Positions 3,459 to 35,953 of a stretch of DNA of 35,953 bases are shown piece after piece. Source of the stretch: an uncultured Bacilli bacterium. GTDB taxonomy: Bacteria; Bacillota_I; Bacilli_A; RF39; UBA660. The stretch is taken from assembly GCA_944363605.1 (NCBI GenBank), contig CALVUM010000055.1:1-35953 (forward strand). The letters are read 5' to 3'. The position numbers and the translations under genes were made by a program. How positions within the stretch are numbered: position 1 is the first letter of the stretch; every line of letters starts with the position of its first letter. Below the pieces are notes generated by a model, which saw only the letters and a list, made by a program, of their open reading frames with translations, searched no databases and was not told the origin of the DNA.

Positions 3459-3575
3459 AGAAAATTCTTTTAAATGAAAGAGCTTATCTCTGCAAAATTT
3501 GTCGAACACTTTTTTTTAGAAAAAAAAGGAAATTCATATTTTTTTACGAATGTATTAGTAGAAGGAGAAAAAAAT

Positions 3576-6035
3576 ATGAAAAAAACATTCATACTTCTAC
3601 TATTTCTTAGCTTGTTAGGAATAATAGAAGTTAAGGCGGCAACTGTAACCGACCAAATAACAAGCACTTTTTTAGGAGATTATCATTATGTTTACGATGA
3701 TGGAAAATTTGGGGACTTTGAATTATTCAAAAGAAATAGTAACCAAAATATTGCATATTGTATTGAACCTGGTGTCTCAAGACATAAGGGAGATTATACT
3801 GGATATCTTGGATTATCTAATGCTGAACTAGCTTTAAAAGCTGGAATATCTACTACCCAACTAGAAAAAATAAGTTTATATGCATACTATGGATATGGAT
3901 ATAAAAATCACACTAGCACAGATTGGGTAGTTGCAACTCAAGCAAAAATTTGGAATGTACTAGGAAAAAATTTTCAGTTTACAAGTAAAAACTATTCACC
4001 AAATCCCTGGCAATACGTTATAAGTACACCTGTAAATATCGAAGAAAAATTTAAAGAACTTGACACATTAATCGAAAGACATTACACCAAACCAAGTTTT
4101 GATTGGCAAACCATTTTAATTCCATACAATGAAGGATCTTATATATTAGAAGATAAAAATGGAATATTAAATGAATTTGAAATTAAAACATCAACAAATT
4201 GTACTTTAAAAATTGAAAACAATAATTTGATCATTACCCCAAATAAGAGTAACAGCGAAGGAGTAATTTATCTCGTCAAAAAAAGACAAGATTGGAATCA
4301 AGATATTATCCTCTTTCATCACGATACAGGGCAAGATTTACTAGCCACAGGAGACGTTAAAAATGTCGAAAGCACTATTGTTTTTAAAACGATTACAGGA
4401 AAAGTCAAAATTCAAAAACAAGATCAAGACACAAATAAATGTCAAGCCCAAGGAGAAGCTTCTCTAGAAGATGTAGAATACACCTTATATAAAGAAGATG
4501 GAACAAAAATGAAAACAGTTAAACTTCAAAATTGTGAAGCCACCATAACTAATTTACCATTAGGAAATTATTATATAAAAGAAACTAAATCCCCAATAGG
4601 TTATAAATTGGACGAAAAAAAATATGACTTTGCAATCACAGAACAAAACATTACCCAAGAACAAACAATCATTGTTAAAGACGAAGTCTACAAAACCGAT
4701 TTAACCATTGATAAAAAATATTTGACAGCTGAAGGCTTAAAACCAGAAGCCAACACTAAATTTGCAATTTTAAACAAAAAAACTGGAGAAACACTCTATA
4801 CCTTAATAACTGATGAATTTGGAAAAATAAATATTACCCTACCCTATGGGGAATACATTATTAAACAACTTACAGGACTGGAAAACTATTATAAAAGCGA
4901 AGATATTTCTTTAACTGTTGATGAAAAAACAGAAGCAAAAACCAATATCGATTTAATAAATGAGCCATATACTTCTAAAGTAAAAGTTCAAAAAATAAAT
5001 AGTGAAACCAATGAGGCACTTACTCTAGCTAATATTGCATTTAAAATTTATGATCTAAAAAATGAAAAATACATCTGCCAAACGAGTGACTGTATTTTTA
5101 AAACCAATGAACAAGGAGAATTTACTACAGAAGACCTCTTCCCTTCTACTTATCGCTTAGAAGAAGTAAAAACGAATATTCCAGGTTATTTATGGAATGA
5201 AGAAACAATCACTTTTACAATCGATAAAAACTCTCCGGATAAAATTGAATTAAAATTTACAAATAAACGAGTAAAAGGCAAAATAAAAGTTCAAAAAATG
5301 GATACCCAAAAAAAGCCTTTAAAAAATGTCGTCTTCACTCTCTATGCAAAAGAAGATATTTTTGAAAATGGAAAAATCGTTTATTATCAAAACGAACAAA
5401 TTGATTCTTTTATTACGAACGAAAAAGGAGAATTTGAAACTAAGCTTTTACCATTAGGAAATTACTACATTATAGAAACGAATCCATTAGATGGATATAT
5501 CCCGTTAAAAGAACCGATTCAAGTTTCTTTAACATTTCAAGATTCTTTCACAGAAATAGTTGAAAAAAACATTACAGTTACCAATACCCCACTTCAAAGA
5601 GGAAAATTACTTATTAAGAAAATAGATGAAAAGAAAAATCCTTTAGCCAATGTTGGATTTGCCCTTTATGCAAAAGAAAACATTTTTGAAAATGGTAAAG
5701 TCATCTATTTTCAAAACGAAAAAATTATGGATTTTTATACAAATGAACAAGGAGAATTTGAAACAGATATTCTTCCTTTAGGAACCTACTATATAATAGA
5801 AACCGAACCACCAAATGGTTATATCCCGATAACTGAACCCATAATCATAACATTAACGTCTTCAAAAAAAGAAGAACAGATTATTACAAAAGAAATTGAA
5901 ATCGAAAATGAAATCTATAAAGTACCCAATACCAATTTAAATCAAGTAGTTATCCCATCTATTACAGTTTATCTAGAAGGAAAAAATGATGAAAAAAAGA
6001 ACAAATATTTTCATATTAACTATAAGTATATTTAG
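3576..6035 (+). CDS. Secreted thioester-domain adhesin with five Cna_B/SpaA-type repeats
   Basis: An 819-residue surface protein. A signal peptide (MKKTFILLLFLSLLGIIEVKA) precedes a thioester domain, with the thioester cysteine likely C62 (AYCIEPG) and the glutamine Q122 in the TQxxIW signature (ATQAKIW). Such domains bind host targets covalently. Five Cna_B-like repeats follow from about residues 274, 371, 467, 565 and 673. Most open with a lysine strand (VKIQKQD, VKVQKIN, IKVQKMD, LLIKKID) and close with an E-box such as YYIKETKSPIGY or YYIIETEPPNGY, as needed for Lys-Asn isopeptide bonds. The C-terminus is odd: VPNTN at about 783 resembles a sorting motif, but only a weak hydrophobic stretch and no proper membrane segment follow. 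The start is taken at 3576 (AGAAGGAGA upstream), not 34 codons earlier. It overlaps the sortase gene by 50 bases. Confidence 0.85.
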   Translation: MKKTFILLLFLSLLGIIEVKAATVTDQITSTFLGDYHYVYDDGKFGDFELFKRNSNQNIAYCIEPGVSRHKGDYTGYLGLSNAELALKAGISTTQLEKISLYAYYGYGYKNHTSTDWVVATQAKIWNVLGKNFQFTSKNYSPNPWQYVISTPVNIEEKFKELDTLIERHYTKPSFDWQTILIPYNEGSYILEDKNGILNEFEIKTSTNCTLKIENNNLIITPNKSNSEGVIYLVKKRQDWNQDIILFHHDTGQDLLATGDVKNVESTIVFKTITGKVKIQKQDQDTNKCQAQGEASLEDVEYTLYKEDGTKMKTVKLQNCEATITNLPLGNYYIKETKSPIGYKLDEKKYDFAITEQNITQEQTIIVKDEVYKTDLTIDKKYLTAEGLKPEANTKFAILNKKTGETLYTLITDEFGKINITLPYGEYIIKQLTGLENYYKSEDISLTVDEKTEAKTNIDLINEPYTSKVKVQKINSETNEALTLANIAFKIYDLKNEKYICQTSDCIFKTNEQGEFTTEDLFPSTYRLEEVKTNIPGYLWNEETITFTIDKNSPDKIELKFTNKRVKGKIKVQKMDTQKKPLKNVVFTLYAKEDIFENGKIVYYQNEQIDSFITNEKGEFETKLLPLGNYYIIETNPLDGYIPLKEPIQVSLTFQDSFTEIVEKNITVTNTPLQRGKLLIKKIDEKKNPLANVGFALYAKENIFENGKVIYFQNEKIMDFYTNEQGEFETDILPLGTYYIIETEPPNGYIPITEPIIITLTSSKKEEQIITKEIEIENEIYKVPNTNLNQVVIPSITVYLEGKNDEKKNKYFHINYKYI

Positions 6036-6543
6036 TCTATTTTGTTTACTTAGCTTTGAAAAAATCCAAACAACCACGACCGTGGCTACTACTATCCCTA
6101 CACCGATAAACCAAGTACCTTCTATAACTACCCAAAAAGAAGAAACAAATAGTAGTTTAACAAAAAAAGAAGCTACTTTAGAAATACCCAAAATTTCTTT
6201 AAAAAAAGATTATTATTCAATAAATGATTCAAAAAACACAGTAAATATTGGAATTGAACAATTAAGTGATTGTAAACCAACAGAAAACTGTACCATTGTT
6301 CTTGCCGCCCACTCAGGAACAAGCAATATCTCTCATTTTAAAAATTTAAACCAATTAAAACAAAATGACTTAGCTTTCATTACTTATCAAAATACTACAT
6401 ACACGTATCAACTTATAAATATTTTTCATGAAGAAAAAACAGGTTTTATTACCATTCCTAAAAATAGCTATGATTTAGTTTTAACAACTTGCAATAAAGA
6501 AAAACAAAATATTCAAGATATCTACTTATTTATAAAAAAATAA
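5986..6543 (+). CDS. Sortase-family transpeptidase lacking the usual catalytic arginine
   Basis: A 185-residue protein with an N-terminal signal/anchor segment (about residues 7-24), a threonine-rich linker, and a sortase core from about residue 63 (ATLEIPKISLKKDY). The catalytic histidine is H109 in AAHSG and the cysteine C169 in LTTC. The arginine normally found 6-12 residues after the cysteine is absent: the tail reads NKEKQNIQDIYLFIKK, with K or Q where R is expected. The gene overlaps the adhesin by 50 bases, which ties it to that substrate. It probably attaches the adhesin to the wall or to another protein on the outer membrane face. At 185 residues it is within the normal sortase size range. 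Confidence 0.85.
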   Translation: MMKKRTNIFILTISIFSLFCLLSFEKIQTTTTVATTIPTPINQVPSITTQKEETNSSLTKKEATLEIPKISLKKDYYSINDSKNTVNIGIEQLSDCKPTENCTIVLAAHSGTSNISHFKNLNQLKQNDLAFITYQNTTYTYQLINIFHEEKTGFITIPKNSYDLVLTTCNKEKQNIQDIYLFIKK

Positions 6544-9421: not shown

Positions 9422-10081
9422 ATGAACATAGCAATTATTGAAGATGACGAAAAAATAAGAGAAGAATTAGCTATTCTCTTAAAAAAAGAAAATTACATAC
9501 CTCATATACTTACCAATTTTGAAAATATTTTAGAAAGCATTTTAAAAACACCAACTGATTTAATTCTTTTAGATATCAATCTACCTTATGAAGATGGCTT
9601 TGCAATTTGTGAAAAAATAAAAAAAGAAAAAGATATCCCCATCATTTTTGTGACGTCTAGAACAAAAGAAGAAGATGAGCTAAAAAGTATTCGTTTAGGG
9701 GGAATAGATTTTCTAACCAAACCCTATAATAAATTCATTTTATTAGAAAAAATCAAACGTGCTTTAAATATTACCAATCCAATTCATTATCAAGAAATTA
9801 CAATTAATGATGTAACCCTAAACTTACATTTATCCACTATAAAAAAAGAAAACATCGAAACAGAACTAACAAGAAATGAGTTTCGAATTCTTTACTACTT
9901 CTTTTTAAAACCCCATACCCTTATTACCAAAGAAGATTTACTAGAATCCTTGTGGAATGACAAATATTATTTAGATGAAAATATTTTAAATGTTAGCATA
10001 AATCGTTTACGAAAAAAACTAGAAGAAATTGGCGCAAAAGATTTTATCAAAACAAAACGTGGAGTTGGTTATTATATATGA
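9422..10081 (+). CDS. bceR: OmpR-family response regulator, BceR-like
   Basis: A 219-residue two-domain regulator. The receiver domain (1-115) has the acidic pair ED-D at 7-9, the phospho-acceptor D51 in LILLDINLP, the switch Thr/Ser in FVTSR and the conserved lysine in FLTKPY. A winged-helix DNA-binding domain (about 125-219) includes LTRNEFRIL and NVSINRLRKKL, typical of OmpR/PhoB effectors. GGAAGGA precedes the ATG. The gene ends in TGA, overlapping the kinase ATG by 4 bases (ATGA). It most likely activates the bceAB promoter through the TNACA-N4-TGTAA site at 6558-6571. The TGA stop shows that this genome does not read TGA as Trp here. Confidence 0.9.
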   Translation: MNIAIIEDDEKIREELAILLKKENYIPHILTNFENILESILKTPTDLILLDINLPYEDGFAICEKIKKEKDIPIIFVTSRTKEEDELKSIRLGGIDFLTKPYNKFILLEKIKRALNITNPIHYQEITINDVTLNLHLSTIKKENIETELTRNEFRILYYFFLKPHTLITKEDLLESLWNDKYYLDENILNVSINRLRKKLEEIGAKDFIKTKRGVGYYI

Positions 10082-11070
10082 ATATTTTTAAATTTTTAGA
10101 AAGCAAAATTATCACCATTCTCTTCCACTCTACTTTTTTTCTTATTGTATATATTTTTCTTAGATTATGTAAATTTCCAATAAGTATCACATTGCTAATT
10201 ATAAGTAGTATGATATTCATATATATTTTCATTTTAGGAATAAAATATATTTATTTAAAGAGAAAAGCCCAAAAGATTATCTGTCAAGTAGATGAATTAG
10301 AAGAAAAATATTTAATTACGGAACTTTTAAAAAAGCCCCAAAATTTAGAAAATCAAGCCTACTATTATGCTCTTTTAAAAGCAACTAAAGCAATGAATGA
10401 TAAAATAAGTGAATTAGAAAATGCCAAAAAAGAATACGAAGAATATATTGAATCGTTTGTTCATGAAATAAAAACCCCACTCGCGGCTCTTTCATTAACA
10501 ATTGAAAATCAAAAACTTAACGATTTAAGACCTGAAATAAGTAAAATTGATGAGTTAACCGAACAAATTCTTTATTATGCCCGAAGCCAAAATCCTGAAA
10601 AAGACTGTTTTATAAAAAAAGTAAATCTAGAAGATATTATCCACTCGTTAATTTTAAAAAATCAATTTTATTTACTTCAAAACAAAATTCAAGTGCATGT
10701 AGAAAAACTAAAAAAAGAAGTATATACAGATGAGAAATGGTTAAGTTTTATTCTTTCCCAAATTCTAAGTAACGCAATAAAGTATAAGAAAAAGGACTAT
10801 TGTCAAATCAAAATTTATACAATAGAAAATGAAAAAAAGCTCAGTTTAATCATTGAAGATAATGGAATAGGTATTAAAGAAAGTGAACTACAAAGAGTTT
10901 TTGAAAAAGGCTTTACGGGTAGCAATAGAACAAAAAAATATGCAACCGGCATGGGCTTATATTTAGCCAAAAAATTAGCAGAAAGCTTAAATATTCATTT
11001 AAAAATCGAATCAAAATATCAAGAATTTACTAAAGTCATTTTAGAATTTTCACATCAAAAAAAATTATAG
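10078..11070 (+). CDS. bceS: Intramembrane-sensing histidine kinase, BceS-like
   Basis: A 330-residue kinase with two transmembrane helices (about 13-31 and 36-58) separated by only a few residues. With no extracellular sensor domain, it must sense through its partner permease, as Bce-type kinases do. The phospho-acceptor is H129 in SFVHEIKTPLAAL. The ATPase domain carries an N box (LSNAIKYKK), G1 (IEDNGIGI), F box (VFEKGFTG) and G2 (TGMGLYLAKKLAE). It is translationally coupled to the regulator by the ATGA overlap. No terminator follows; 18 bases after the stop codon comes the promoter of the small RNA of locus A, so readthrough into that RNA is possible. Confidence 0.9.
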   Translation: MNIFKFLESKIITILFHSTFFLIVYIFLRLCKFPISITLLIISSMIFIYIFILGIKYIYLKRKAQKIICQVDELEEKYLITELLKKPQNLENQAYYYALLKATKAMNDKISELENAKKEYEEYIESFVHEIKTPLAALSLTIENQKLNDLRPEISKIDELTEQILYYARSQNPEKDCFIKKVNLEDIIHSLILKNQFYLLQNKIQVHVEKLKKEVYTDEKWLSFILSQILSNAIKYKKKDYCQIKIYTIENEKKLSLIIEDNGIGIKESELQRVFEKGFTGSNRTKKYATGMGLYLAKKLAESLNIHLKIESKYQEFTKVILEFSHQKKL

Positions 11071-11085
11071 AAAAAATAAAATCTA

Positions 11086-11094
11086 TGATATAAT
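11086..11094 (+). promoter_or_regulatory. Extended -10 promoter of antisense RNA A
   Basis: TGATATAAT at 11086-11094 is an extended -10 element. It is preserved in copy B at 11412-11420. Transcription would start near 11101. Confidence 0.7.
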
Positions 11095-11100
11095 AAATGT

Positions 11101-11207
11101 GTCAAGAATAATGACATAAAAAAGGGAATACTTAACATTCGCTAGTTGAGTACTTACCCAAAAAAGTGTATGTACTTAATTCAACACGAATTGAGTACTA
11201 TTTTTTT
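11101..11207 (+). ncRNA. Candidate antisense RNA A (type I antitoxin-like)
   Basis: Predicted RNA of about 107 nt. It starts with a small hairpin (GTCA/TGAC, 11101-11115). The second hairpin (11124-11159, GGGAATACTTAAC ... GAGTACTTACCC) has an ATTCGCTA loop. It ends at a terminator with an 11-bp stem GTACTTAATTC/GAATTGAGTAC (11172-11198) and T tract to 11207. Its complement contains the terminator and stop codon of the peptide mRNA read from the other strand, so it overlaps the mRNA 3' end over roughly 90 nt. This is the arrangement of type I antitoxin RNAs. No Rfam search was possible, and expression is inferred from promoter and terminator only. Confidence 0.7.
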
Positions 11208-11287
11208 ATTAATATTATCATTAAAGATAAAATCAATAATAGATTAGCCAAGAGTAAAAAGGAGATTAGTAGATCCTTTCTCTTCAT
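11198..11287 (-). CDS. 29-aa hydrophobic peptide A, type I toxin-like
   Basis: A 29-residue peptide that begins MKRKDLLISFLLLANLLLIL, has a hydrophobic core to residue 27, and ends in IKK. It is a single membrane-spanning helix with a positive N-terminus and lysines at the end, like Fst/Ldr, TxpA and BsrG-class toxins that perturb the membrane. AAGGGAG lies 8 bases before the ATG (11296-11302). That site can be partly paired by CCTTC/GAAGG (11299-11315), and AAGCGCTT abuts the ATG. The TAG stop lies at the foot of the antisense RNA terminator. Copy B encodes the same peptide with only R3K, which argues for selection on the peptide. Toxicity is inferred from architecture. Confidence 0.75.
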   Translation of the reverse strand: MKRKDLLISFLLLANLLLILSLMIILIKK

Positions 11288-11313
11288 AAGCGCTTCTCCC
11301 TTCTTTAAATGAA

Positions 11314-11377
11314 GGTAAGTACTCATACGTTAAATATTCCCTAATCAAAATATAACATAAACAAACTGCATTTGCAA
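11314..11377 (-). promoter_or_regulatory. Promoter and fold-back 5' leader of peptide A mRNA
   Basis: On the reverse strand TTGCAA (11372-11377) and TATATT (11349-11354) are 17 bases apart, placing the start near 11342. The mRNA then opens with GGGAATATTTAAC-GTAT-GAGTACTTACC (11341-11314). That segment repeats both arms of the antisense RNA hairpin and is complementary, with 13 plus 11 pairs including one G-U, to the 3' end of the same mRNA (11159-11124). A long-range 5'-3' fold-back is therefore possible, as in hok-like mRNAs. Confidence 0.65.
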
Positions 11378-11426
11378 AATTGCAAAAAAATTAAAATATA
11401 TCAGAAATTTGTGATATAATAAATGT

Positions 11427-11531
11427 GTCAAGAATAATGACATAAAAAGGGAATACTTAACATTCGTTAGTTGAGTACTCACCTTAATGGGTTTTGTACT
11501 TAATTCATCACGAATTGAGTACTATTTTTTT
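11427..11531 (+). ncRNA. Candidate antisense RNA B
   Basis: Second copy of the RNA at 11101. The extended -10 is at 11412-11420, the hairpin GTCA/TGAC at 11427-11441, and the second hairpin at 11449-11483 with loop ATTCGTTA instead of ATTCGCTA. The terminator stem GTACTTAATTC/GAATTGAGTAC is at 11496-11522, with a T tract to about 11531. Both stems are preserved while loops and linkers vary, which is how paralogous antisense RNAs diverge in specificity. Confidence 0.7.
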
Positions 11532-11611
11532 ATTAATATTATCATTAAAGATAAAATCAATAATAGATTAGCCAAGAGTAAAAAGGAGATTAGTAGATCC
11601 TTTTTCTTCAT
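11522..11611 (-). CDS. 29-aa hydrophobic peptide B, type I toxin-like
   Basis: The peptide is identical to peptide A (11198-11287) except that residue 3 is lysine: MKKKDLLISFLLLANLLLIL, then a hydrophobic stretch and a final IKK. The ribosome binding site AAGGGAG, the palindrome AAGCGCTT before the ATG, and the TAG stop at the base of the antisense terminator are all conserved. It is a small inner-membrane peptide, inferred to be toxic when unpaired from the RNA at 11427-11531. Two intact copies in tandem suggest either dosage or recent duplication. Confidence 0.75.
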   Translation of the reverse strand: MKKKDLLISFLLLANLLLILSLMIILIKK

Positions 11612-11637
11612 AAGCGCTTCTCCCTTCTTTAAATGAA

Positions 11638-11701
11638 GGTAAGTACTCATACGTTGAATATTCCCTAATCAAAATATAACATAAACAAACTACATTTGCA
11701 A
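11638..11701 (-). promoter_or_regulatory. Promoter and leader of peptide B mRNA
   Basis: On the reverse strand TTGCAA (11696-11701) and TATATT (11673-11678) are 17 bases apart. The mRNA would begin at GGGAATATTCAAC-GTAT-GAGTACTTACC (11665-11638). It is divergent from the DUF4186 gene, whose ATG is only 20 bases from the -35, so the two transcripts start in overlapping control regions. Confidence 0.65.
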
Positions 11702-11721
11702 ATTGATAGAAAGGTTAAAGT

Positions 11722-12090
11722 ATGTTAAAAATAAATGAAGTTTTGGAAAGATTAAGTAAATCAAAATTTAGAAATAGTTTTCATTTAAAAGAACAAGACA
11801 AAAAATATATAAAAGAAAAAGGCCTATCTAAAATCGAAAGTCATGCTAGGGACTTTATTTCAAAAAGACTTGCTCCAAAAAATCCTTTAAATGATGGAAA
11901 ACAAACTCCTATGAAAGGTCATCCTGTTTTTATAGCCGAACATGCCACAGCTACATGTTGCCGAAACTGTCTATATAAATGGCATCATATTTCTAAAAAT
12001 AAAGAATTATCCAAAGAAGAACAAGAATATATAATCACTATAATTATGACTTGGATCAAAAAAGAGCTAGTTTCTAATAAAGAAAACTAA
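11722..12090 (+). CDS. DUF4186 family protein
   Basis: A 122-residue protein with the clear DUF4186 signature: SKFRNSFHLKEQD near the start, FISKRLAPKNPLNDGKQTPM then KGHPVFIAEHATATCCRNCL, then KWH. The conserved His/Cys cluster (H, H, CCRNC, H) suggests metal binding, but the family function is not known. AGAAAGG lies 7 bases before the ATG. The gene is divergent from peptide B, and its leader overlaps the end of repeat unit 2. Its C-terminal codons contain the stem of the terminator at 12062-12097. Convergent with the arginine operon, whose last stop codon is 13 bases away. Confidence 0.85.
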   Translation: MLKINEVLERLSKSKFRNSFHLKEQDKKYIKEKGLSKIESHARDFISKRLAPKNPLNDGKQTPMKGHPVFIAEHATATCCRNCLYKWHHISKNKELSKEEQEYIITIIMTWIKKELVSNKEN

Positions 12091-29498: not shown

Positions 29499-29731
29499 TA
29501 TTTCACCTTCCTACAATAAAAAAACTTCTAGAACATTGGGACGAGTAAACCCGTGGTACCACCCAATTTCTAGAAGAAATCTAGCACTTTAATTCTTTAA
29601 CGCAAGACATACGATGAAAACTCCAGTATCGAAATTCATTTATTTTTTCTTCTTAAAAGTACTCTCAGCTTATAATACTTTCTCTCTTTAAGGAACAAAA
29701 CAAACTACTTAAATACCTTCTTTGCTTTCTT
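29499..29731 (-). promoter_or_regulatory. T-box riboswitch leader of pheST (tRNA-Phe sensing)
   Basis: The reverse strand holds the conserved T-box TGGGTGGTACCACG at 29565-29552. The terminator stem CTTCTAGAA-ATTGGG / CCCAATGTTCTAGAAG (about 29576-29525) runs into seven T. Stem I lies upstream with an AGAGAG element and a GAATTTCGATACTGGAG segment; a TTC phenylalanine codon at 29633-29631 is the likely specifier. When uncharged tRNA-Phe binds, the antiterminator forms and pheST is transcribed. Confidence 0.93.
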
Positions 29732-29844: not shown

Positions 29845-29895
29845 TATAACTTTATCGAGATACATTTATACATTAGGTGTTTTTACCTCAGTCCT
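29845..29895 (+). promoter_or_regulatory. Promoter and fold-back 5' leader of peptide C mRNA
   Basis: TATAAC (29845-29850) places the start at about 29857. The mRNA then begins with GAGATACATTT (29857-29867), TTAGGTGTTT (29873-29882) and CTCAGTCCT (29887-29895). The same three blocks occur in the antisense RNA from the other strand (30106-30066), so this leader can pair with the 3' end of its own mRNA over about 30 bp. The -35 is weak. Confidence 0.6.
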
Positions 29896-29938
29896 GTTAA
29901 TTTATTATGATAAATTTTATAGGAAAGAGGTGGTCCTT

Positions 29939-30020
29939 ATGGAAGAAATTTTCAGTGGAGTATTTGATTGCTCTTATAGTAATAGTATTACTTACGAAAT
30001 TTTTAGACCACAAGAACTAA
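29939..30020 (+). pseudogene. Type I toxin-like hydrophobic peptide C, probably frameshifted
   Basis: AAGAGGTGG is followed 6-8 bases later by an ATG at 29939, but that frame (MEEIFSG...) gives a 42-residue non-hydrophobic peptide. One base out of frame, 29955-30020 reads VEYLIALIVIVLLTKFLDHK and N, a membrane helix with a charged tail, as in peptides A and B. Removing one G near 29955 would join MEEIFS to EYLIAL and give a 26-residue toxin-like peptide. The stop codon TAA lies at the edge of the antisense terminator, the same geometry as in loci A and B. A GTG start at 29955 (GGAAG nine bases upstream) or an ATG at 29907 without a ribosome site would keep it alive. Confidence 0.6.
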
Positions 30021-30145
30021 AAAAAGGCACCTACTCATCATTGAATAGGTGCTTTCCCAGAAAATAGGACTGAGAAACACCTAACTAGCGAAATCAAATG
30101 TATCTCTTTTTTTGTCCGAATAGATAGGAAAATGACATTTCCTAT
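30019..30145 (-). ncRNA. Candidate antisense RNA C
   Basis: On the reverse strand TTGCAT (30174-30179) and TATAAT (30150-30155) are 18 bases apart. The RNA begins with a hairpin ATAGGAAA/TTTCCTAT (30124-30145). Next comes GAGATACATTT-GATTTCGCTAG-TTAGGTGTTT (30106-30076) with the TTCGCTA element. It ends at a terminator, GCACCTATTCA / TGAGTAGGTGC (30027-30052) with seven T (30019-30025). It overlaps the end of the peptide C mRNA, including that mRNA's own terminator. Confidence 0.7.
30072..30113 (+). terminator. Terminator of peptide C mRNA
   Basis: GAGAAACA ... TGTATCTC with a long loop and a run of seven T (30107-30113). It lies entirely within the antisense RNA C gene on the other strand. 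Confidence 0.6.
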
Positions 30146-35711: not shown

Positions 35712-35740
35712 TTGTAAAAACACTTTTTCTATGTTAACAT
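35712..35740 (+). promoter_or_regulatory. Candidate promoter of RNA D
   Basis: TTGTAA (35712-35717) and TAACAT (35735-35740) are 17 bases apart, giving a start just before the 5' hairpin at 35750. Confidence 0.45.
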
Positions 35741-35749
35741 GTATATAGA

Positions 35750-35840
35750 TGAAGGAAACTTCATAAAATAATAAAGGAACATTCAATTCGCTATGTTGAG
35801 TGTTGCCAAATATGTTTGGTTCCACCTAAATCATTGTGAA
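35750..35840 (+). ncRNA. Candidate antisense RNA D, 3' end cut off by an IS element
   Basis: The RNA begins with TGAAG-GAAA-CTTCA (35750-35763), like the first hairpins of RNAs A to C. A perfect 9-bp stem AACATTCAA/TTGAGTGTT (one G-U) at 35778-35804 holds the TTCGCTA element in its loop. A third segment, TTCCACCTAAATC-ATTGT-GAA, looks like the start of a terminator whose second arm is replaced by the IS3 end at 35841. The peptide gene expected on the other strand would lie beyond the IS, outside this window. Confidence 0.55.
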
Positions 35841-35953
35841 TTGTACCCTATAAAATGGACACGATAGTGGTATAATTTATTGGTTAATTTGGTTATTTTG
35901 AAGAAGATGATTTCTGTATTGTACAGGACTCATCTTTTTTAAATTCCATTGGT
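35841..35953 (-). mobile_element. 3' end of a second IS3-family element (truncated by window edge)
   Basis: TTGTACCCTATAAAATGGAC at 35841-35860 has the form of an IS3-family terminal inverted repeat, followed by the transposase end on the reverse strand. Its sequence differs from that of the element at 1-132, so the two are different IS types. It is inserted into small RNA locus D. Confidence 0.8.
35877..35953 (-). CDS. IS3-family transposase OrfB, C-terminal fragment
   Basis: Read from the window edge, the reverse strand gives WNLKKMSPVQYRNHLL followed by QNNQINQ and TAA at 35879-35877. MSPVQYR is the hallmark end of IS3-family transposases. Only 25 codons are inside the window. The upstream part, including the DDE residues, is not visible, so integrity is unknown. 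Confidence 0.85.
   Translation of the reverse strand, partial: QWNLKKMSPVQYRNHLLQNNQINQ

Follow-up and report, generated by a model that had tools for sequence, protein, structure and literature searches.

A probable new family of type I toxin-antitoxin loci, arranged in tandem in the genome of an uncultured Bacilli bacterium

The analysed DNA (the window) was a 35,953-nt stretch of contig CALVUM010000055.1 from the uncultured Bacilli assembly GCA_944363605.1. Two tandem units of about 290 nt each, 95% identical and spaced at about 325 nt from copy to copy, were located at 11086-11380 (copy A) and 11412-11702 (copy B). In each unit a plus-strand small RNA (sRNA) of about 105-107 nt is convergent with a minus-strand mRNA for a 29-residue peptide (11084-11342 and 11410-11666). 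An earlier sequence-only reading had described two near-identical units of this kind, each with a promoter-driven RNA and a convergent peptide mRNA, and the promoters, terminators and Shine-Dalgarno (SD) sequences were found accordingly. The extended -10 element of the copy A sRNA promoter (TATGATATAAT, 11084-11094, plus strand) was kept across 32 aligned homologs; its counterpart in copy B is TGTGATATAAT (11410-11420, plus strand). The antitoxin-like sRNA of copy A (11101-11207, plus strand, about 107 nt) was matched by covariance model R1 with 121 bits and contains a middle hairpin and a terminator hairpin (11172-11198) followed by a T-run. For the sRNA of copy B (11427-11531, plus strand, about 105 nt) the R1 match was 119.5 bits. 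The two sRNA terminators lie at 11172-11207 and 11496-11531; they were the only 2 terminator-like sites in the kilobase scanned, with 0.3 expected in shuffled sequence. Fold stability of the sRNAs relative to shuffles corresponded to z-scores of -5.4 (A) and -5.0 (B).

On the minus strand, a promoter of the form TTGCAA-17-TATATT with a TG element precedes each peptide ORF (11349-11378 in copy A, 11673-11702 in copy B). The predicted toxin mRNAs are about 225 nt (copy A, 11118-11342, fold z -7.3) and 224 nt (copy B, 11443-11666, fold z -7.2) long, the ends of the former being inferred from sequence. In copy A, the 5' leader GGGAAUAUUUAACGUAUGAGUACUUACC (11314-11341, minus strand) is complementary to the 3'UTR segment GGGUAAGUACUCAAC...GUUAAGUAUUCCC (11124-11159, minus strand), to which it is predicted to clamp and which is also antisense to the sRNA. 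The ribosome site of both ORFs is GGGAG, and that of copy A lies in a hairpin (CCUUC..GAAGGGAG, 11288-11315, minus strand) upstream of the start codon. The peptides are MKRKDLLISFLLLANLLLILSLMIILIKK (MKRKDLLISF..., 11198-11287, minus strand) in copy A and MKKKDLLISFLLLANLLLILSLMIILIKK (MKKKDLLISF..., 11522-11611, minus strand) in copy B; an in-frame upstream ATG without SD would extend the peptide to 42 residues. The peptide stop codon is situated at the base of the sRNA terminator and the sRNA lies over the mRNA 3' end, as had been proposed and as the coordinates bear out. Repeats of 12 nt flank the peptide ORF and are inverted in the DNA.

Further copies were present in the window. A third, diverged unit (29868-30139) comprises an mRNA-like leader, an out-of-frame hydrophobic peptide and a 3'UTR clamp (29868-30111, plus strand) together with an sRNA on the minus strand (30016-30139), which was matched weakly by R1 (E 0.029). 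Its toxin is frame-shifted or has no SD-linked start. The clamp of this unit, of different sequence, was calculated at -31.4 kcal/mol; 200 shuffles averaged -12.8 and reached -24.7 at best. A T-box leader scoring above its own gathering threshold was located nearby (29534-29731, minus strand). The fourth copy is an sRNA remnant (35730-35842, plus strand) in which the toxin side has given way to an IS3-type element that extends past the contig end. The tandem pair itself lies between a histidine kinase gene and a DUF4186 gene (10078-12090), and a unit or tandem pair occupies the same place at L003, L004, L005 and L007; this shared position in four related genomes marks the window pair as an old resident. 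Elsewhere in the window (3474-6543), next to a sortase, a large surface protein is encoded that combines a thioester domain with five domains of the prealbumin-like (SpaA) type.

The 32 plus-strand sRNAs were aligned and yielded 18 consensus pairs in two hairpins. Stem cells were paired in 99.1% of cases, compared with 23-42% for slid structures, and 65 doubly changed cells were counted against 20 in shuffles; such covariation counts are inflated by the relatedness of the sequences, and permutations leave this uncorrected. Many stem cells are G-U and would be A-C on the opposite strand, which identifies the plus strand as the folded RNA.

By DNA search, units like those of the window were detected in 43 of 99 related genomes, weak matches counted in. 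The sequence-only reading had suggested covariance-model and peptide searches of related genomes, and both extended the family. Within the same family, R1 (E <= 0.001) matched 210 of 291 genomes (72%) and 116 of 150 genera, with up to at least 11 copies per genome, and additional, more diverged units were retrieved with the peptide. In a class-wide sample (R1 at E 1e-4), matches were obtained in 25 of 38 family genomes and 1 of about 258 others, the split having been counted from the match list. The window's own genome (about 70% complete) gave 12 matches at E <= 0.1; for 10 of these E was below 1e-4, and another contig carried three copies in tandem. Copies were often situated close to the end of a contig (L105, L110, L113, L145, L148, L161), and it is suggested that the repeats break metagenome assemblies, so that copy numbers are underestimated. 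Within the window's genus, genome G031 had sequence exactly in common with a Candidatus Ventrenecus stercoripullorum contig; further named carriers were metagenome-assembled genomes of uncultured Bacilli, Tenericutes or Mycoplasmatota, mainly from gut samples. No match to a 29-base sRNA pattern was obtained in a viral collection, nor to the unit DNA or the peptide in phage and plasmid records.

The peptide frame was conserved at homologous loci, as would be expected of a real gene. Among loci outside the model that were fetched with R1, 46 of 63 carried an ORF that was short and hydrophobic, had a ribosome site and stopped at the sRNA terminator. The test was nearly though not wholly independent because the last ~10 R1 positions overlap the final ORF codons. 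The corresponding controls were 0.16% for shuffled flanks and 0 of 61 at a mirror site. Family peptides are 24-30 residues long, with a best-window mean hydropathy of about 2.6-3.8, a K-rich N-terminus and often KK at the C-terminus. With fewer than 60 residues, a hydrophobic transmembrane helix and charged ends, they have the properties by which type I toxins are recognised. Peptide groups include MKKKDLLISFLILIIILLIVSLMILCIKK, M[NSHT]KKDFLIxxLIIIIxLLIxLLFxxLK and MKTKTFIIKVLKLIAIILFLLIIMIVVIKK. Within groups, dN/dS was 0.19 (the subgroup of copy A), 0.21 and 0.36, and on these sequence comparisons the peptide is under purifying selection.

Decay of the loci was asymmetric. Toxin remnants lay beside an intact sRNA in 28 of the 32 loci scored as having no intact ORF, about three of which are really intact (L116, L124, L151) and were missed through a GTG start or the SD filter. 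Many remnants were frameshifted (L084, L005, L022, L071, L072) or truncated at the 5' part (L087, L090, L018), one had a damaged ribosome site (L145), and at a few sRNA loci any toxin trace was absent altogether. Intact family peptides fetched by the peptide search had an adjoining sRNA in 20 of 20 cases, and the reverse case, a toxin kept after loss of the sRNA, was not seen among these loci. Such loss of the toxin beside a surviving sRNA would follow from a costly peptide and an sRNA that is either needed or harmless. At two more copies in the window's own genome, the toxin side was likewise replaced by an IS3-type element. This element (310-residue transposase, assigned by motifs only) was located at window positions 35843-35953 and at L098, positions 546-1478; insertion occurred at the same point and in the same orientation beside two different sRNA copies. 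Insertion elements adjoining hok genes are a known parallel (PMC6733600).

Taken together, purifying selection on the ORF, conservation and folding of the sRNA on the predicted strand, their linkage and the asymmetric decay uphold the type I toxin-antitoxin-like interpretation of the sequence-only reading, and each unit probably belongs to a new family of type I toxin-antitoxin loci. The composition of the peptide is generic, so a harmless membrane peptide is conceivable. In that case a small peptide with a membrane or regulatory role would be made, and the antisense RNA would merely tune its dose. The chromosomal position of the loci, with at least one pair syntenic in four related genomes, is what a host-serving gene would show; against this stand the frequent loss of the toxin with retention of the sRNA, the reverse not having been observed, the many copies, and the tight locks on the SD and between the mRNA ends. 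A non-toxic role is considered quite unlikely.

The sRNA start was located 60-70 nt (twice 34 nt) past the CCA end of a tRNA gene in 22 of 60 loci, always on the same strand (among others L106, L108, L109, L111, L113, L116, L119, L123, L128, L134, L137, L139, L154-L157, L160 and L163). Between tRNA and sRNA a terminator-like hairpin (AAACGACTTGTCAAAAAGTCGTTTTTATG) holds the sRNA -35 element in its loop and abuts the -10 element; judged by its sequence, it is a terminator and promoter in one. This placement in one orientation directly downstream of tRNA genes, together with the tandem arrays and the many copies per genome, would suit a repeat that is mainly selfish and colonises sites such as tRNA 3' ends and tandem arrays, with the peptide-RNA pair maintaining it or travelling as a passenger. 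A transposase or terminal repeats belonging to the unit were not seen, and the window pair has long been syntenic. In the genus (L288-L306), a variety of tRNA genes and tmRNA are followed by the trailer CCAGATTGATAGGAAACTCG, which occurs about once in each genome that has it, whether or not an sRNA unit comes next; an origin as a mobile element of tRNA ends was rejected because the trailer is found without the unit too. That the unit is mainly a selfish repeat is therefore regarded as unlikely, and it would be compatible with toxin-antitoxin function.

The sequence-only reading had been unable to name the family, and Pfam, NCBIfam, PHROGs and Rfam likewise provided no family match for the peptide or the RNA. 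In Rfam, no score for the unit RNA exceeded a gathering threshold. A ctRNA_pND324 match (0.028, minus strand) was not repeated at other loci, an HPnc0260 match in L106 was explained by antisense to the tRNA, and the HokA match (E 0.12) obtained with a single family member was attributed to chance among 18 scans. BsrG reached 11 bits in Rfam against a gathering score of 55 (E 6.3), and no TxpA/BsrG toxin was matched in Pfam or NCBIfam. A description of the family was not found in the literature searched, which was mostly open-access. According to a cyanobacterial study (PMC12390103), Proteobacteria, Firmicutes and Tenericutes were earlier the only groups with known type I systems; the family thus appears new, the phylum not.

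The units had been likened to Fst/par, TxpA/RatA and BsrG/SR4. The likeness held for the latter two, which are closer in layout: txpA/RatA and bsrG/SR4 of B. subtilis (PMC6562991) share with the window units convergent genes, an antisense RNA covering the 3' end of the toxin mRNA, a short hydrophobic toxin and an SD-sequestering helix. They differ in that sequence matches are absent, that the covering RNA here contains a near copy of the leader and that the leader clamps to the 3'UTR. For Fst/par it held in part. RNA I/RNA II of pAD1 (PMC7472228) has convergent promoters, overlap at the terminator and a small single-helix peptide, as here. The Fst/Ldr hallmarks are a PxxxG motif and a conserved Trp before the charged tail (PMC7472228), whereas the window peptides contain no P, G or W. 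The direct repeats DRa/DRb of Fst/par are transcribed both ways, but the repeats are inverted here, so that the two RNAs share rather than complement the repeat sequence; the sRNA is also about 105 nt long, compared with about 40 nt given for Fst RNA II (PMC7472228). Convergent overlapping genes, unannotated small peptides and several copies are likewise features of CD2517.1/RCd8-type loci of C. difficile (PMC6563280); those toxins have 50-53 residues and many lie in prophages, whereas the present family had no phage, plasmid or viral matches. Membership, in diverged form, of one of the known families (Fst/Ldr, TxpA/BsrG, Hok, AapA) would account for the broad layout of TxpA/RatA and BsrG/SR4 and for the hok- and AapA1-like clamp described below. 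It would leave unexplained the missing database matches, the peptide composition, the inverted repeats and an RNA antisense to the 3'UTR instead of the 5' region, and such membership is judged very unlikely.

Two features absent from the sequence-only reading, the hairpin at the ribosome site and the clamp between the 5' and 3' parts of the mRNA, bear on how the presumed new family may be controlled. The leader consensus GGGAAUAyUUAACxGUUGAGUACUUGCC is complementary to the 3'UTR of its own mRNA (GGyAAGUACUCAAC...GUUAAGUAUUCCC); put differently, the sRNA contains a sequence nearly identical to the leader. Mean leader-3'UTR energies were -39.9 kcal/mol (cognate pairs), -31.1 (non-cognate loci) and -20.6 (shuffled UTRs). 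One clamp arm contained 108 doubly changed cells (permuted mean 23, maximum 51), and both arms preferred the cognate partner (-13.1 vs -8.8 and -20.0 vs -15.2). The leader self-hairpin, an internal control of equal relatedness, gave -5.4 vs -5.2; no coevolution signal was present and it was rejected. The clamp dominated the predicted fold in 97% of 104 mRNAs. A long-distance 5'-3' interaction of the hok/aapA type is thus predicted, with covariation.

The SD is placed in a hairpin closed by the leader end (GCC..CUUUC..GAAAG.GGC). Its opening cost was 6.6 kcal/mol compared with 3.2 with shuffled upstream sequence, and was higher in 92 of 100 loci. Closing partners were GCC/GGC in 50 cases, ACC/GGU in 20 and ACC/GGC in 0, a distribution to which subgroup ancestry contributes. 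SD opening was 5.06 in the clamped state and 5.00 after deletion of the last 22 nt of the mRNA, so the clamp as plain SD occlusion is unsupported. When the whole 3'UTR was set as occupied, the mean rose from 5.06 to 6.93, with an increase in 93 of 104 loci, because the freed leader closes the SD hairpin; SD accessibility is here a thermodynamic estimate and the differences amount to only about 2 kcal/mol.

Several chromosomal copies and a long-distance interaction of the mRNA ends are shared with aapA/IsoA of H. pylori (PMC6733600) and hok/Sok. In those systems the antisense RNA is directed at the 5' region of the mRNA, whereas the sRNA described here would target the 3'UTR clamp partner; the aapA clamp hides the SD, whereas calculated SD occlusion is not raised by the clamp here. 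Binding of SR4 lengthens the bsrG SD helix from 4 to 8 bp (PMC6562991). By this analogy, the modelled tightening of the SD upon 3'UTR pairing points to an SR4/bsrG-like effect, unlike the AapA scheme. The wiring of the family is best read as distinct from that of hok/Sok, AapA/IsoA, Fst and BsrG.

Under the following proposal, transcription, toxicity, membrane action, RNase III decay and the switch are all predicted from sequence. The minus strand would encode a membrane peptide of 24-30 residues that forms a single helix and is presumably toxic in excess, and the plus strand an antisense RNA of about 105 nt, nearly all of it complementary to the toxin mRNA 3'UTR. In the mRNA, the 5' leader would be clamped to the 3'UTR, with the ribosome site in a local hairpin that the leader end can close. 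Pairing of the sRNA with the 3'UTR would form a duplex of up to about 100 bp that could be attacked by RNase III, an enzyme encoded in the genome. It would also displace the leader, the last bases of which could then close the ribosome-site hairpin. Where the sRNA is scarce, the peptide would be translated and insert in the membrane. A more tentative suggestion, for which the modelling leaves considerable doubt, is that the polarity of control is reversed relative to hok/AapA1, the clamped state being the more translatable one and the sRNA competing with the leader for the 3'UTR. The clamp would draw the leader GCC away from the ribosome site, and the sRNA would free the leader and so shut the site.

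If true, a reversed-polarity switch would be used in many paralogous copies per genome of about 1.2 Mb. Because the natural alignment is deep, compensatory mutations could be used to test the RNA switch directly. Uncultured gut Bacilli, namely the genus of Candidatus Ventrenecus and its family, would gain a large suspected type I repertoire that has so far been unannotated, which bears on why reduced genomes retain many such loci.
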